Virus record (IMG/VR): IMGVR_UViG_3300021085_000226
Span: 1 to 23,259 of that record
DNA: 23,259 bases
Origin: a virus
Reading direction: 5' to 3' (one strand)
The position numbers and the translations under genes are program-made. Positions 9,315 to 18,088 of the stretch are shown piece after piece (positions within the stretch are counted from its first letter, which is position 1; each line of letters opens with the position of its first letter). A model generated the notes under the pieces. That model had not been told where the DNA came from. It saw only the letters and a list, made by a program, of their open reading frames with translations, and did not search any database.

Positions 9315-11630
9315 TTACTCCTGTGCCGATAATAAGGGATCAAGGGCAGATTTAGCTTGTTGGATTTGTTCTGGAGTAGGGTCCGGTCCAAAGATCATCG
9401 TAGCTCGAATAAAGTAGAAGTTATTCAACAATTGTCCTTGTACAGCTTCAGACTGTTCCATTATGTAGTCCATTTTAATTTTATCTTGGTCCAACAATTG
9501 TTGATTATTCAGATAGGTATTTAAGCCCAAGCCATTATTGTTTTCAGTTTCGTCTGTTTGCTGGTCAGACGGCACTGGCGCGGTGCTGGAAAGCCACTGC
9601 ATTACTTCAGGGGTATTGTTATTCAGGTGATCGTTGATACCAACTTGAAGCTGAGTTGCTTCAAATGCCTGTTTATAAACGGGGTTATTCATGGCAATGT
9701 TATGCTCACTGCTATTCTCTAATATCTCATCATAATCTTTAACCGCCTGAGTAATCATATTCTGGGTCTGAGTTTTTAGGTTGGCAGTATATGTGGGATA
9801 ATCAGTGCCTACATTATTGATAGTAAGCGCATTCTTATAATCGAAGTTAGAAAGAGCCTGACCTGAGCTATCCAGAGCCAATTTAGCAAAGGAGAATGCG
9901 TGTCGAATATTAAGAGCATTCCACTGCGCCCATGCCGAAGCATTTTGTGCTAAAATAGACTTACTTTCTTCGTCCTCGGGTTGAAGATTTTGTAATTTCT
10001 GAGCCGCTTGTTTGGTAAATGCTTCAGCAAATTCGCTATCCGATAGACCTTCACCGCCTAAAGCATTAGCCAGCGCCTCCAGTTCTTCACCTACTTTCTT
10101 GACTAGAGATGAACCCTTGCCACCAATGAATGTCAGTATGTCTGGGTTGTTCTTAGCAAAAGTATCCAGTTGCAGAGCAGTCTGAGCCAGAGTGGTTGTA
10201 TCGGTCTTCAATTGTGATAACGGCGCATTAAAGTCGGCGGTAGTTCTATTAGCCATATTCTGTGCGGCAGTAACTTCATCGCTGCGAGGGCCAAGTTCTA
10301 CAATATCACTAGGACCATATGTCTTACCGTGTACTGCATCATAGAACTTACCGTTCTCCATTACAGCCAAATACAATTCAATAGGCTCTGCATTTGGTGT
10401 GTCAGGATTTGGCCTCAGAAATACAGTCTGCATTTTATCTGTAAGCTTTAAGTCATTAGAGGTGTCGCCTTCGGCAGCATTATAAGTAGCCTGTACCTGA
10501 TCCAGTAACGATTTACGCTGGGCTAGAGCCAGTTTCTTTCGTAATTGATCTTCTGTTAAGCTTGAATCGTCAGGCCCAAAAGACGCTAATTCTGAGGTCA
10601 CATTAGCCGTGAAGTCTGCAATGTTAGTCTTAGTTATAGTCTCCGTCATAAACTTCTGAGAAGCAGGATCTGCCAAAAGTTTATCGACTTCCGCTCGTAG
10701 AGTTGGATCAGCATTTGCTAATTTCTTTAACTCCTCTGTAGATTTATATGAGCCATCGTCATTCTTTAATGGGTCATCGTCAGGATTTTGATTAAACCGT
10801 GGCTCCTTCTTTATGGTTTCTAGAGCAGTAAGCAGGGCAGTCTTTTGCGTACCGGCGGGCATTGCATTGATCTGACTTTCCTTAGCACTTAAATCTGCTT
10901 TATTTTTTATACCCTTAAAGAACTCAGATACATCGGCAGGAACGTCTGTATATGGAGATAGTTCAATACCGCTTTTCTCTATTTCTACAGGTTCAAGGGA
11001 AGCATCATTCTCCCCTTCAGGGCCAAGAATAGCATCCATCTGCTTTTCCATGCCGCCCTGTGTAGTACCGCCCGATTCTCTTAAATCCTCAACAGTGTCA
11101 CGAACTCTAGCTTTAGTCTCATTATCGCCTTTGGCTCCAGCATTCTTAAAAGCAGCTAATGTACTGCTTTGGGCAACATCCAGATCTACATCACTACGCC
11201 GTAGCAGCGGCCCCTGTAATTCAAGGCTCTCAGTTTCCTTAGTGAATTTAAGCTGACCGCTATCAATCATACTCTTAGTCAAAGTAGTTACATCGCCTAC
11301 ATCCCCGTCCATTAAACGGAGTTGCTGCTCAAAAAAGTTTATAGCGCCAGTGTTGTTGGCGTCCCCTGAGAAGTTTAAGTTCAACGCCTTAGCATTGCGC
11401 TGTATTTTTTTCTCTTTTAAATCGGCGGCATCTTGGGCAGCTTTTAAACGGCGCTCTTCAATACGGGCCTCTCTGCGCTTGTCTATTTCTTCTTGGCGCT
11501 GGACCTCTGCACCCTTACGAATGCCATATGCAACTTCATCAGCAAAAGCAGCAAAGGGATTGCTCTTCTTTTTGTATGAACCAGAGCTTATACCAGCCCT
11601 TACCTTAGCAGCCTCGCTCTTAAAGCTCAT
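9315..11630 (-). CDS. Large virion protein, candidate internal/ejection protein (T7 gp15-like position)
   Basis: The 771-residue product starts at ATG 11630, chosen over the ATG at 11648 because AGGAG (11638-11642) lies 7 nt upstream. The N-terminal 80 residues are strongly basic and helical (EIDKRREARIEERRLKAAQD). The middle is acidic and Asn/Asp-rich with many short helices, and the C-terminal third is Gln/Asn-rich. There is no cysteine, signal peptide or membrane helix, and no enzyme motif. It overlaps the 182-residue gene by 11 nt and is followed after 3 nt by the 1265-residue gene. I recognise it only as a large phage structural protein; the ejection-protein role is an inference from order and size. 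Confidence 0.8.
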   Translation of the reverse strand: MSFKSEAAKVRAGISSGSYKKKSNPFAAFADEVAYGIRKGAEVQRQEEIDKRREARIEERRLKAAQDAADLKEKKIQRNAKALNLNFSGDANNTGAINFFEQQLRLMDGDVGDVTTLTKSMIDSGQLKFTKETESLELQGPLLRRSDVDLDVAQSSTLAAFKNAGAKGDNETKARVRDTVEDLRESGGTTQGGMEKQMDAILGPEGENDASLEPVEIEKSGIELSPYTDVPADVSEFFKGIKNKADLSAKESQINAMPAGTQKTALLTALETIKKEPRFNQNPDDDPLKNDDGSYKSTEELKKLANADPTLRAEVDKLLADPASQKFMTETITKTNIADFTANVTSELASFGPDDSSLTEDQLRKKLALAQRKSLLDQVQATYNAAEGDTSNDLKLTDKMQTVFLRPNPDTPNAEPIELYLAVMENGKFYDAVHGKTYGPSDIVELGPRSDEVTAAQNMANRTTADFNAPLSQLKTDTTTLAQTALQLDTFAKNNPDILTFIGGKGSSLVKKVGEELEALANALGGEGLSDSEFAEAFTKQAAQKLQNLQPEDEESKSILAQNASAWAQWNALNIRHAFSFAKLALDSSGQALSNFDYKNALTINNVGTDYPTYTANLKTQTQNMITQAVKDYDEILENSSEHNIAMNNPVYKQAFEATQLQVGINDHLNNNTPEVMQWLSSTAPVPSDQQTDETENNNGLGLNTYLNNQQLLDQDKIKMDYIMEQSEAVQGQLLNNFYFIRATMIFGPDPTPEQIQQAKSALDPLLSAQE

Positions 11631-12168
11631 CTTCAGGCTCCTCTTCATCTACGCCGCCTAGCATGGCAGTTTGCTCTTCTTCAGGTGCTACAACCCCAGC
11701 TTCAGGCATAGCCATGAGACCTTCTGAGGGAGCTTCTGGTGCAGGTTCTTCGGGAATAACCTGCTCATCCTCATCCTCTTCATCAATGATGCCCATAGAG
11801 GCCTTGAGAAGCGTAGGTGTAATGACTACACGGTCCTTGTCCTCTACCCCCATCTCATATTTTACACCGGCATTCTTAGCCGATATTTCAATGTAACGGG
11901 CTACTGGACCTGCAATGAGAATAGCTAAGTCTATGCCTAGCTTACCCTTGCTGACTGCTTGTAGGAGTAATGTGGTGACGATGGTTGTAATGTGGGCGTC
12001 TATACCCAGCATAGCAAAAATCAGTTCTTTCTCTTCAGGCTCATCAATCTTATCGATCAAATAAGAGACAGCCTCATCATAGTCCACCGTATCTGGTGGC
12101 CGGTGCCACGCATAATTACGGGTGTCTGACATATAATTACCGCCCGGAATTGGAGCATTAAGCCTCAT
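11620..12168 (-). CDS. Conserved phage structural-type protein with acidic tail
   Basis: The 182-residue protein opens with a short proline/aromatic segment (PIPGGNYMSDTRNYAWHRPP). A compact helical domain follows (about 28-110), in which LIFAMLGIDAHITTIVTTLL and LGIDLAILIAGPVARYIEI are moderately hydrophobic. The last 50 residues are a disordered Glu/Pro/Ala-rich tail (DEEDEDEQ, EEEPEDEL). I associate this type of small protein with structural clusters of marine tailed phages, but I cannot name a function. GAGGA lies 8 nt before the ATG at 12168. It overlaps both neighbours by 11 nt, so stoichiometry with the flanking 64- and 771-residue proteins may be set by translational coupling. A virion-assembly chaperone is an alternative. 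Confidence 0.75.
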   Translation of the reverse strand: MRLNAPIPGGNYMSDTRNYAWHRPPDTVDYDEAVSYLIDKIDEPEEKELIFAMLGIDAHITTIVTTLLLQAVSKGKLGIDLAILIAGPVARYIEISAKNAGVKYEMGVEDKDRVVITPTLLKASMGIIDEEDEDEQVIPEEPAPEAPSEGLMAMPEAGVVAPEEEQTAMLGGVDEEEPEDEL

Positions 12169-12363: not shown

Positions 12364-14619
12364 TTATTTTCCAAACGGTAGTAAATCGGTTAGCCATTTA
12401 GACCCACTGGATGAGCCAAAGTAGGCTCCAGCAACAGAGCCACCTATTTTCAGCAATCCATCTAAGAAGCCACCGCCAGACTGTTGACCCGACTGAGCTT
12501 GCATCTGTGCCATAAGCAGCCGAAGCTCCCGCTCTAAGTCGTTGTCTGTAGTCTTCCAAATGTAGTCGAGGATGTTATCTGCGCTATCCCAGAGATTGTT
12601 TTGAGCCTCTGTAGTTAAGTCTAATGCTGCTTTAACGTCTGCCGTGTGAGCATCCACCATAGTCTGGTTATTAGTGGTCTCTACGGTCTGTCTCCACTTG
12701 GCATTCGATAAATCAATTTGATATTGCATTTCAGATAAAAACTGTTGCCGGTCATTCTTCATGTCAGCGTTAAACTGAGCGGCATCATTTATTTCGCCAG
12801 CATTAAACTTCTTTAGTGCATTCATCTCAGAAGTGTTGTGACGCTGAATATTTACTACCATTTCGGTGTAGAATTTATTCATGTCGTTAGTAGCTTCGGC
12901 ATTGAACCTGCGAGCTACATTCTCTTCTTTAGTATTCTCCAGCATTGCCTGAACAAGAGCTTGCTTATTAATCATCTCAGCTTGCTGCTCATTAGTTAGG
13001 TTAGCTAAATCCATCTCCATAAATGCTTTAGCATTTTGTACCGCTGCCTGAGACCGTACATCTAAATTAGCCATCTCCAGTTTGGACAAGATATTAGCTT
13101 TGTTAATGATAGCTTCTTGCTTATTGTCCAAGTTCTTGGTGGTAAGTGTCTGGAAAAAAGTGGCTTCCTTTTCAGCTACCCCTAAAGTAGCTTCCATGAT
13201 TGCATTAGACATAGCCGCTGTAGCAGCGGTTCCAGAGATACCACTGAAGCCAATGGATTTCATTACCTCTCTATGTTGAGCTTGCGCCCACGGCGGTATA
13301 ATTGGCTCACCGTTTGGACCCTTGAACTCCGCAGCAATAGTCTTCATCTGCCATAGAATAGAGGTCTTGGCGTCTACAAACTCTTTACCTTCTTTACGAA
13401 GCTTATCCGCTAAAAGTTTACCGGCCACCGTAGTTGTATCAATTACTTTTGACAGGTCTACATTAGCCCAGTCATTAACGGATATACCAAGTTCATTTTT
13501 TGTGCCATCTGCATTTACGCCAGTAGCTGCGCCAGTCATATCAATAGCATATTTATCGGCATCGACTAAAGCATCGTCGCTTACTGTACCAGTTGCTGCG
13601 TCCATCATCTCGTTATCAGTGAGAGTGGTAGTGGCAGCATCATAGTTAGAAGCACCCGGATTATCTGCTAGACTAGGGTCTACTGTAGCAGCATCTCCGG
13701 TAGTAGTAGCCGTGTATCCATCATTGTCTCCAAGCCCATAATTAGGATTGTTAGGGTCTAAATTAGTTCCTTCAGAATCTGGATCTATCTTAGGCATAAT
13801 GTCGGCAAGTACTAAGCCTCTATCTTCCAGAAACTTATTTGGGTCTGCAATAATAGCCTTCATATCTTCTTCGTTGGCTACAACGCCCGCCGCTACCGCC
13901 ATGTCTTTTATAGCTTCGGCAGTAAGTCTTCCCTCAGAAACTTCCCCACTTTCGTTGGCATTATCTTCCGCATATTGAGCAATTTGTGCAGCGCCCTCGC
14001 TATCTCCACTGGCTTGAGCTTGCTGTTGATTAAACTGATATCCGGTCATTGTACCATTAGGGTCCAACTCACCGGAGTTATTTACCTTCATAGATAATTT
14101 ATCAACCGGTACACCATCTTCATTTACCTTTACCTCGTACTGCATTCCAAGGAAATTATACGAATACTGCATACCCCCTTCACTGACGTAAACGCGCCTT
14201 CCATCGTAAACTCCAGCCTTAAATCCATCGACTTCTCTATCTTGATCTGCTTCAGCATCTAGCCCGTTTGCCCAACTAGCTAATCCACCAAATACTTTAG
14301 GCAGTGCCGTCATAGGATTTATAACTGCGCCAATAGCGTCCTTAACTCCTAGAGTTCCCTTCTCACCCTGTATTTTATTTATAGGATCTTTATCTGGATT
14401 AGTGTCGGTGTAAGTAGAACTATCCCCTGAGTTAGAACTGTTAGAGTCGTTCAACCCGTCATTTGCATGGCTATTACCGGTTACTGCATTGGATATGGAT
14501 GCAATACCCGTTACGTTATTATTGGGATTATTATCATTATCATAAGTATCCCCGCTCATTCCGGGTCCACCGCCATCGAACATATCGCCAATGCTATCGT
14601 AGTTGCCAAAAATGCCCAT
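12364..14619 (-). CDS. Large virion protein with disordered N-terminus and long helical C-terminal half; candidate ejection protein (T7 gp14-like position)
   Basis: The 751-residue product has a disordered Asn/Asp/Gly/Ser-rich N-terminus (1-80), an Ala/Asp/Thr-rich middle, and a long helical region (about 480-710) that includes related segments, RRFNAEATNDMNKF and KKFNAGEINDAAQF. A glycine-rich C-terminal tail (GGGFLDGLLKIGGSVAGAYFG) looks amphipathic and could contact membrane. There is no cysteine and no enzyme motif. Its ATG overlaps the outer spanin stop by 1 nt (TGATG). Comparable C-terminal helical-plus-glycine tails occur in marine podovirus structural proteins. Calling it the gp14-like member of an ejection set is an inference from order and composition. 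Confidence 0.82.
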   Translation of the reverse strand: MGIFGNYDSIGDMFDGGGPGMSGDTYDNDNNPNNNVTGIASISNAVTGNSHANDGLNDSNSSNSGDSSTYTDTNPDKDPINKIQGEKGTLGVKDAIGAVINPMTALPKVFGGLASWANGLDAEADQDREVDGFKAGVYDGRRVYVSEGGMQYSYNFLGMQYEVKVNEDGVPVDKLSMKVNNSGELDPNGTMTGYQFNQQQAQASGDSEGAAQIAQYAEDNANESGEVSEGRLTAEAIKDMAVAAGVVANEEDMKAIIADPNKFLEDRGLVLADIMPKIDPDSEGTNLDPNNPNYGLGDNDGYTATTTGDAATVDPSLADNPGASNYDAATTTLTDNEMMDAATGTVSDDALVDADKYAIDMTGAATGVNADGTKNELGISVNDWANVDLSKVIDTTTVAGKLLADKLRKEGKEFVDAKTSILWQMKTIAAEFKGPNGEPIIPPWAQAQHREVMKSIGFSGISGTAATAAMSNAIMEATLGVAEKEATFFQTLTTKNLDNKQEAIINKANILSKLEMANLDVRSQAAVQNAKAFMEMDLANLTNEQQAEMINKQALVQAMLENTKEENVARRFNAEATNDMNKFYTEMVVNIQRHNTSEMNALKKFNAGEINDAAQFNADMKNDRQQFLSEMQYQIDLSNAKWRQTVETTNNQTMVDAHTADVKAALDLTTEAQNNLWDSADNILDYIWKTTDNDLERELRLLMAQMQAQSGQQSGGGFLDGLLKIGGSVAGAYFGSSSGSKWLTDLLPFGK

Positions 14620-14864
14620 CAGATATTACCCTTTTCTTTTTCACACGCACGAATGCGGTCACGAAGCTTTGCGTAGTCGGCTATAGCCGTTTGAATATTG
14701 CCGTCTGCACCTTCTAAGGTGTCTAACTCATCGGCTAATTCATTGTTAAATTCTGGCGTGTAGGTCTGAATAGGTGGACAATAAACTTCCAGCTTGGTTC
14801 TATAGACCGTTTCCGCGCAGCCGCTCAGTGAGACTGCGGCTATCAGTAATGCTATCTGCTTCAT
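14619..14864 (-). CDS. Outer-membrane lipoprotein spanin (o-spanin, Rz1-like)
   Basis: From ATG 14864 the product has 81 residues: a short basic start, a hydrophobic segment, and the lipobox LSGC with Cys16, the predicted signal peptidase II cleavage and lipidation site. The mature part of 66 residues has CPP near its start and a helical C-terminal half (YAKLRDRIRACEKEKGN). With the inner-membrane spanin encoded in an overlapping frame, it should bridge the periplasm and disrupt the outer membrane in the last step of lysis. The start is placed at the codon directly before the hydrophobic signal. A longer reading from 14954 would add a basic stretch that does not fit a lipoprotein signal. The ribosome binding site is weak (GAG close to the ATG), consistent with coupling to the overlapping i-spanin gene. 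Confidence 0.83.
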   Translation of the reverse strand: MKQIALLIAAVSLSGCAETVYRTKLEVYCPPIQTYTPEFNNELADELDTLEGADGNIQTAIADYAKLRDRIRACEKEKGNI

Positions 14865-15039
14865 GCTCTGCCATTGCTTTATAAAAACCAGTCGCCTTTT
14901 CCTGCGCCTGTAGATCGTCCTTGAGGACTTTATTCTTTTCGTTAGCTGCCCCACGTACTCGCCCCATCACGTAAATAATGGGAAGAGCCAGTGCGAGAGC
15001 GCCTATAATGTAGGTCTTGATCTTGCCGAAGATGAACAC
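14800..15039 (-). CDS. Inner-membrane spanin (i-spanin, Rz-like)
   Basis: The 79-residue protein has one N-terminal membrane helix (about residues 9-26, YIIGALALALPIIYVMG) and a periplasmic helical part (RGAANEKNKVLKDDLQAQEK) ending in ITDSRSLTERLRGNGL, the kind of C-terminus seen in Rz proteins. It should pair with the overlapping lipoprotein spanin. The start is GTG at 15039, overlapping the endolysin TAG by 1 nt, with GAAGG about 9 nt upstream. The last 65 nt overlap the o-spanin gene in another frame, an arrangement between the nested lambda type and fully separate spanin genes. Confidence 0.85.
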   Translation of the reverse strand: MFIFGKIKTYIIGALALALPIIYVMGRVRGAANEKNKVLKDDLQAQEKATGFYKAMAEHEADSITDSRSLTERLRGNGL

Positions 15040-15770
15040 TAATGAACGCCTTCTTTATTATCCTTCCAGCGAGCGTATGCAGCTAAGGCAATGCCTCCAA
15101 TTGCACACAGTAGGAAGATGGTTTTCAGGCTGTCTGCGTAAGCAACCAACCCCTGTAATTGACCCGCTACCTCGTTCAAGCCAGTGGCTGCACCGGCTAT
15201 ACCTGCACCTACCATAGTCTTAGACTTAGTAAGCTTCTTAGGAGCCTCTGCGGTAGGTTTCTGTACCATCTGCGGGCCACCCTCATCAGATGGCAATTGA
15301 GCGTCACGACTAAAGATAGCTGCTTCCGCTGCACGGCGTCGAGTAAGTCCACGTAGAGGTGTTAGCTTGCCGTCTACCCGTGCCTTGTTCCAGCGATTAA
15401 GCTGCTCAGGTACATCGTCGTACATTCCTAAGTTCAGACGCTTTAGGGCTGTAGATGACTTAAAGTTACCACCTCCGACATTGAATACAAACGATACTAG
15501 GGCATCATACTGACCTTGGCTTAGAGGCACGTTGACTAGACGTTTAACTATCTTACCGTGTGCGTCTAAGTCATCTTTAAGATGCTGCTCTGCCTCGGCT
15601 ATAGTGCAAGTCATTCCAGAGCGAATACCCTTAGTTTTCCCAAATCCAAGTGTCCAAACACCGGCTGGACAGCGATATGAGTGTACTAATCCATCGTCTT
15701 TTAGTTTGTGGAGACCTTCAAACTTTTTAACAAGATCTACGCAATCTTTTGATACTGTTACTGGATGCAT
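15039..15770 (-). CDS. GH24 lysozyme endolysin with C-terminal membrane segment
   Basis: Residues 1-155 form a T4/P22-type muramidase that cleaves peptidoglycan glycan strands. KKFEGL carries catalytic Glu18, YRCPAGVWTLGFG (32-44) holds Thr40, and ALVSFVFNVGGGNF is the conserved core helix. The usual catalytic Asp position is Cys34, a substitution found in part of the family. Glu18 to Cys34 is about 7 residues longer than usual. After a Pro/Lys-rich linker (160-185) comes a Gly/Ala-rich stretch (187-197) and a clear membrane helix (about 217-233, TIFLLCAIGGIALAAYARW) with a short charged tail. ATG 15770 is preferred (AGG 7 nt upstream); TTG 15785 would add five residues. It heads the lysis cassette and no separate holin is seen. 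Confidence 0.87.
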   Translation of the reverse strand: MHPVTVSKDCVDLVKKFEGLHKLKDDGLVHSYRCPAGVWTLGFGKTKGIRSGMTCTIAEAEQHLKDDLDAHGKIVKRLVNVPLSQGQYDALVSFVFNVGGGNFKSSTALKRLNLGMYDDVPEQLNRWNKARVDGKLTPLRGLTRRRAAEAAIFSRDAQLPSDEGGPQMVQKPTAEAPKKLTKSKTMVGAGIAGAATGLNEVAGQLQGLVAYADSLKTIFLLCAIGGIALAAYARWKDNKEGVH

Positions 15771-17668: not shown

Positions 17669-18088
17669 TTAGAACTCCTTTATGTGAACTTTGTCTGGCT
17701 GTTTGAATCTACGCCAGTGGGCTGGAACTCTCTTGCCCAAGATTGATTGTGAGTGTTTCATCATGCCGCGCATGACTTTGGTTGTGTGACCATACGGAGC
17801 TATAAATTCTATTCCCCATAGCTGTAGGTCTGAAACTATATCCGGCCTCTTGTAGGTGGCCTCTTCTGGTATCCACCTCTCTGAAGTAAATCCCTCTGCC
17901 TCACCTTCGGTCAGCCATGCCCAAGAAACAAATCCTATAGGCTTCTCTTTATCGTAGAATAGTCTGGCCTTGTTATGAAGCAGGGGAAATACACAGTAGT
18001 GGTTAAATTCAACTAGCGTATAGAGCCTATGATCTGCGGATTGGTTAAACAAGAAAAGACTGTCTAGTACAGCTTTTTGTAGTAACAT
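17669..18088 (-). CDS. HlyC-type toxin-activating lysine acyltransferase-like protein
   Basis: The 139-residue protein resembles HlyC/ApxC enzymes, which move fatty acids from acyl carrier protein to lysines of RTX toxins. SADH ends at His20, matching the catalytic His of HlyC in SPLH. IGFVSWAWL (51-59) matches the VAYCSWANL strand. A WGIEFIAPYG segment (91-100) matches WFIDWIAPFG, followed by a helix with MRGMM (compare YMRKKF). At the position of the conserved Asp of that segment there is Glu94. It is shorter than HlyC (170 residues) at the C-terminus. No RTX toxin gene is visible here, so the substrate is unknown and may be a virion or host protein. It has no ribosome binding site and a promoter-like element ends about 9 nt before its ATG. 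A degenerate or repurposed acyltransferase is possible. Confidence 0.8.
   Translation of the reverse strand: MLLQKAVLDSLFLFNQSADHRLYTLVEFNHYCVFPLLHNKARLFYDKEKPIGFVSWAWLTEGEAEGFTSERWIPEEATYKRPDIVSDLQLWGIEFIAPYGHTTKVMRGMMKHSQSILGKRVPAHWRRFKQPDKVHIKEF

Follow-up and report, generated by a model that had tools for sequence, protein, structure and literature searches.

LysAP of Acidovorax phage AP1 is a GH24 endolysin with a C-terminal helix, and the AP1 report describes how deletion of that helix led to cytosolic build-up of the enzyme and abolished lysis (PMC8879335). The same report presents HolAP as a separate small holin that partners LysAP and speeds lysis, and records that LysAP overproduced alone lyses E. 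coli (PMC8879335). The M4Lys, Enc34 and Siskin endolysins of chi-like phages likewise place the enzyme first and a C-terminal membrane domain after it, with one or two helices and a small membrane gene in the cassette (PMC7143992, PMC8943055, PMC6498227). M4Lys is reported to need its helix and to lyse E. coli when overproduced alone, while its tail alone was bacteriostatic only and gave no lysis (PMC7143992). How do such enzymes cross the membrane? This is an open question in the papers, and the Enc34 authors state that no known route moves an N-terminal domain by a C-terminal signal (PMC8943055). SpmX of Caulobacter also combines a lysozyme domain, a proline-rich linker and C-terminal membrane helices, and its lysozyme domain contacts cytoplasmic partners (PMC5347347).

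The window, which here means the whole stretch of DNA analysed (virus record IMGVR_UViG_3300021085_000226), represents 23 kb of the genome of a CRP-3/HMO-2011-type roseophage, a marine bacterial virus. The record has 23,259 bases and is, for this reason, probably a genome fragment. The isolates closest to it are the roseophages CRP-738 (82.7% identity), CRP-3, CRP-235 and CRP-212, whose genomes measure 52.7-54.7 kb. All four encode relatives of the window's endolysin at 65-83% identity, with the same tail and in the same place before the i-spanin, and their annotation reads lysozyme only. The words holin, lysozyme and endolysin are absent from the main texts of PMC9038755 and PMC6918029, and our literature search, which took in few subscription journals, brought up no description of this tail in roseophages. 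Membrane-tailed endolysins are a rare design already on record, and the present tail has a characterised homologue; the new elements are its occurrence in this marine phage group and the breadth of the tail module. Membrane-tailed endolysins are thereby extended to an abundant group of marine phages.

The endolysin gene and its neighbours

The endolysin gene (Table 1) lies on the minus strand, with an ATG start at 15770, a final sense codon ending at 15042 and a stop codon at 15039-15041, and the plus strand of 15039-15770 holds no long open frame in the frame given. The catalytic domain is of the phage lysozyme GH24 type and not PHA02564, the PF00959 match covering residues 30-149 of the 243-aa protein (35-154 of the 248-aa frame). 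The preliminary description had seen a GH24 domain, a Pro/Lys linker and a C-terminal helix at about residues 217-233, and this layout is confirmed with the helix at 215-233, the top 19-residue window of the protein (mean Kyte-Doolittle 1.91), followed by a basic C-terminus. No SAR-type N-terminal helix is present, since the helix cut-off of 1.5 is not reached anywhere ahead of residue 215, and no export signal was seen in the N-terminus in the helix scan. The hydropathy of the 215-233 segment was equalled by 17 of 2000 shuffles of the tail (155-243) and by 107 of 2000 shuffles of the whole endolysin. Helix hydropathy alone is only moderately beyond chance, and the case for the tail therefore rests more on conservation. 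An AlphaFold2 model of the endolysin is of low quality, insufficient for use here, with a mean pLDDT of 60 and most of the tail below 60.

Table 1 Predicted features of the window and of related loci
Feature	Position	Strand	Evidence
GH24 endolysin with C-terminal membrane tail, 243 aa	15042..15770	-	PF00959 E 2.3e-39; PHROG endolysin E 5e-48
Pro/Lys-rich linker, residues about 159-187	15210..15296	-	translation, hydropathy
Gly/Ala-rich, weakly hydrophobic stretch, residues about 188-214	15129..15209	-	hydropathy; within conserved tail
C-terminal hydrophobic helix, residues 215-233, then invariant R234 and K236	15072..15128	-	hydropathy, alignment
i-spanin (Rz-like), N-terminal helix 7-25	14800..15039	-	PHROG Rz-like spanin E 1e-4
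o-spanin candidate (Rz1-like lipoprotein, 81 aa, Leu-Ser-Gly-Cys lipobox)	14619..14864	-	sequence; weak PHROG Rz-like E 0.0024
HlyC-family lysine acyltransferase gene	17669-18088	-	PF02794 E 1.2e-12
97-aa N-terminal-helix coiled-coil gene and 158-aa multi-helix gene, replacing the XhlA-like gene	L088 2731-3490 (CRP-3); L089 5508-6267 (CRP-235)		
148-153-aa C-terminal-helix protein near terminase	L002 46521-46973 (CRP-738); L088 4032-4493; L089 6663-7109; L090 7805-8266		
Four-gene bacterial cassette	L192 785-2165		

Comparison with LysAP reveals a shared plan, in that both are GH24 enzymes with no signal peptide, a C-terminal helix with a basic flank, and homologous tails. Residues E18, C34 and T40 of the endolysin active site, found in all 54 rows with a residue there in the 55-row alignment described below, align with E15, D24 and T30 of LysAP, such that LysAP has an active-site Asp where the window endolysin has Cys34. 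A cysteine can stand in for the catalytic aspartate in a GH24 active site. The cassettes also differ: LysAP has a holin gene directly upstream, a feature of the AP1 cassette and not of the enzyme, whereas no small holin lies directly upstream of the endolysin in the window. The window has a spanin pair, whereas the AP1 authors found no spanin (PMC8879335).

The spanins had been described as the next genes, and both lie downstream of the endolysin as stated. The i-spanin GTG start overlaps the endolysin stop by one base, and the o-spanin candidate, whose Leu-Ser-Gly-Cys motif we take to be a lipobox by applying the general lipobox rule to the sequence, overlaps the i-spanin in another frame. 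Together they appear to form a two-component spanin, consisting of an i-spanin with an N-terminal helix and an overlapping o-spanin lipoprotein with a weak family match. Three of the 21 window genes scanned reach the helix cut-off of 1.5: those of the i-spanin, of the endolysin and of a protein of 182 aa encoded at 11620-12168. The o-spanin candidate falls below it. No holin-like gene was found among these 21 genes. The HlyC-family acyltransferase gene lies two genes upstream of the endolysin, and the annotations of CRP-738 and CRP-235 have an acyltransferase in the corresponding position.

Two curated family models give sub-threshold matches to the endolysin. The Bartonella gene transfer agent endolysin BgtA (NF058676) is matched over residues 5-232 of 243 and profile positions 3-213 of 220 (E 3e-39), yet the score of 134.8 bits is far under the curated 315, and the window endolysin is therefore not that equivalog. 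The SpmX model matches residues 5-155 with a score far under its cut-off and leaves the tail unmatched; SpmX is a polarity factor (PMC5347347). The M4Lys, Enc34 and Siskin type belongs to catalytic family PHA02564, unlike the PF00959 domain of the window.

Conservation and spread of the tail

The alignment of relatives comprises 84 proteins from 84 loci (the best 80 of 279 viral-contig relatives and four isolates), which reduce to 54 distinct sequences and, with the window protein, give 55 rows. The membrane tail is kept in all 55, as are K184, K216, R234 and K236, and Cys222 is present in 54. A ten-row alignment has 30 invariant columns among the 66 of the tail, and comparison with 12 relatives gave a tail non-synonymous proportion of 0 to 0.148 versus a synonymous proportion of 0.27 to 0.89 that is saturated in many pairs. 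The endolysin and full-length LysAP align at 35% over 232 columns. A tail model built without LysAP scored the LysAP tail at 24.0 bits, and the best shuffle reached 6.5 (463 scored of 500); judged by sequence, the two tails are homologous. The M4Lys tail scored 9.4 bits against this model and the best of 500 shuffles 10.7, so that the M4Lys tail could not be told apart from shuffles.

Genome contigs yielded a single locus (L166), in a Rhodobacteraceae genome (G009) whose class, order and phylum defined the taxa searched. The family-tail profile matched 12 of 385 genomes of the class at E <= 0.01, several of them weakly, and a broader tail profile at E <= 1e-4 matched 87 of 390 genomes in the alphaproteobacterial order and 8 of 398 in the phylum. 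The tail module is found at the C-terminus of M15 peptidases, of GH24 enzymes and of 'NNPGN' enzymes, the last termed PHA02564-like by us from a motif shared with M4Lys. By rough motif labels, the 53 tailed rows comprise 37 M15, 4 PHA02564-like, 1 GH24 and 11 unlabelled enzymes. These observations suggest that several wall-cutting enzymes of alphaproteobacterial genomes have the tail in common as a module that is exchanged among them. A tblastn search of phage records with two bacterial-enzyme tails gave no match.

Removal from these 53 rows of frames under 200 aa, frames with no usable start and near-identical copies left 27 non-redundant tailed-enzyme loci, and a gene of 60-160 aa with a single helix lies just upstream in 21 of them (one, L210, is probably spurious). 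The control was drawn from a single phage genome, CRP-738, and not from bacterial loci, and gave 4 of 28 genes. One upstream protein belongs to DUF6127 (PF19622, E 2e-25), which may be a holin-like partner. The tail and its recurrent small-membrane-gene neighbour thus offer a testable pair for the question of membrane passage. Two arrangements were also observed: a cassette, recurrent in alphaproteobacterial genomes, of a small C-terminal-helix gene followed by a tailed M15 peptidase (L188, L189, L213, L239 and similar loci), the DUF6127 protein being the one small product scanned, and, in a bacterial genome, a compact four-gene cassette at L192 with a coiled-coil and helix gene, a tailed 'NNPGN' enzyme, and i-spanin-like and o-spanin-like genes.

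Could the hydrophobic tail be a decaying or neutral remnant with no role in lysis? The 107 whole-protein shuffles that reached the helix hydropathy would agree with this, but the invariant tail columns of the ten-row alignment, the low non-synonymous change in the 12 pairs and the recurrence of the same module on unrelated enzymes argue against it, and we consider a remnant barely credible.

Candidates for a separate partner protein

The preliminary description reported no holin nearby, which holds for the 21 window genes; terminase-bearing relatives, however, carry a conserved small membrane protein near the terminase. The helix scan of relatives covered 65 annotated genes of CRP-738 and parts of CRP-3, CRP-235 and CRP-212. 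In CRP-738 and CRP-212 the gene directly upstream of that for the small terminase encodes a coiled-coil protein of 88 aa that has a hydrophobic segment at its C-terminus; in CRP-738 this XhlA-like gene is ~23 kb from the endolysin. An XhlA-like coiled-coil and helix gene is present in seven of the eight longer records of relatives (the eighth also has no terminase match) and in two of the four complete isolates. The homologue in relative G001, whose endolysin is 94% identical, matches Pfam XhlA with E 8.5e-5 and 23.1 bits; the XhlA-like scores of 17.6 and 23.1 are under the curated cut-off of 34.7, and the composition of coiled coils could be partly behind the weak Pfam and PHROG matches of these small proteins. 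XhlA itself is described as a membrane protein with a predicted role alongside the holin XhlB, and as a holin synergist, not a holin (PMC5589764). In CRP-823 the XhlA-like homologue precedes and adjoins a PF11351 holin gene, and in MW202426 an endolysin gene is preceded by a homologue that bears the annotation 'hemolysin xhlA'.

CRP-3 and CRP-235 have no XhlA-like gene and carry different small membrane genes at that place (Table 1). The 97-aa protein of CRP-3 has a weak LysB match (E 2.5e-5) far under the cut-off, and the multi-helix protein of CRP-3 and CRP-235 was set aside as a holin because no family assigns it a function. All four roseophages conserve, near the terminase, the 148-153-aa protein with a C-terminal helix, which is related to phrog_32327 in the three scanned and was set aside as a holin on the same ground. 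Similar genes occur in further roseophages and a pelagiphage. A tblastn search with the CRP-823 holin, at E <= 1, gave no hit in CRP-738, in G001 or in the portions used of CRP-3, CRP-235 and CRP-212.

A missing partner protein is probably encoded in the part of the genome beyond the fragment. Because terminase-bearing relatives carry the conserved small membrane gene, the apparent lack of a separate holin is mostly a fragment-edge effect, and a holin-free window is no proof of a holin-free phage. With regard to a holin elsewhere in the genome, which the preliminary description had raised, the window is indeed holin-free and the XhlA-like gene near the terminase of relatives is a candidate only.

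Action of the tail

We hypothesize, with reasonable confidence, that the window encodes a GH24 endolysin with a membrane tail, of the LysAP kind, in which the tail is a membrane anchor or targeting device and not a complete holin, and which acts with a separate partner protein. The enzyme would be made with no export signal, and its tail would hold it at the inner membrane. At a set time a distinct small membrane protein for lysis, most likely the product of the XhlA-like gene upstream of the small terminase and outside the fragment, would perturb the membrane, the tethered muramidase would then reach the peptidoglycan, and the spanins would finish the outer membrane. The rationale for favouring a cytoplasm-facing anchored enzyme that a partner lets through is the reports on LysAP, M4Lys, Enc34 and SpmX, from which we infer the last steps. 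An anchor function of the tail is supported by its homology to the LysAP tail, and by analogy the tail may be needed for membrane placement and lysis. Since LysAP and M4Lys lyse E. coli alone when overproduced, the partner may not be strictly needed.

The preliminary description had offered the tail as an anchor or a fused holin, and the LysAP tail homology supports the first of these. A fused holin-like element, by which the endolysin would permeabilise the membrane itself with no separate holin, as claimed for overproduced M4Lys, we regard as unlikely. It would fit the lack of a detectable canonical holin, the lack of a CRP-823-holin match in the relatives searched and the lysis of E. coli by M4Lys and LysAP alone, as well as CRP-823, which has a PF11351 holin beside its XhlA-like gene and an M15 enzyme with no such tail in its printed sequence. 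However, the tail has a single helix only, searches of Pfam, PHROGs and NCBIfam linked the endolysin to no holin family, and a look for tail genes standing alone found none, the five short frames fetched appearing to be fragments or frameshifted copies. Moreover, the M4Lys tail alone was bacteriostatic only, and tailed enzymes usually adjoin a small membrane gene (21 of 27).

An alternative hypothesis regards the tail as the C-terminal counterpart of a SAR helix, such that the enzyme domain is periplasmic early, tethered and inactive, and is released on membrane depolarisation, as the AP1 authors propose for LysAP (PMC8879335). We consider this quite improbable: the endolysin N-terminus has neither helix nor signal, and the export route that such a protein would need is the one that the Enc34 authors say is not known (PMC8943055). 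The Arg/Lys residues on the C-terminal side of the single helix favour an enzyme domain on the outside, yet no export signal is seen. Phage P1 lysozyme is held inactive by thiol chemistry, and a mirror image can be conceived here in which membrane exit lets helix Cys222 free active-site Cys34, which requires a periplasmic enzyme domain. We hold such a thiol switch to be very unlikely. Cys34 (54 of 54 rows) and Cys222 (54 of 55) are the most conserved cysteines of the endolysin family, but LysAP combines a helix cysteine with an active-site Asp, and the bacterial tailed GH24 enzyme L191 has a cysteine at the active-site position and none in the helix.
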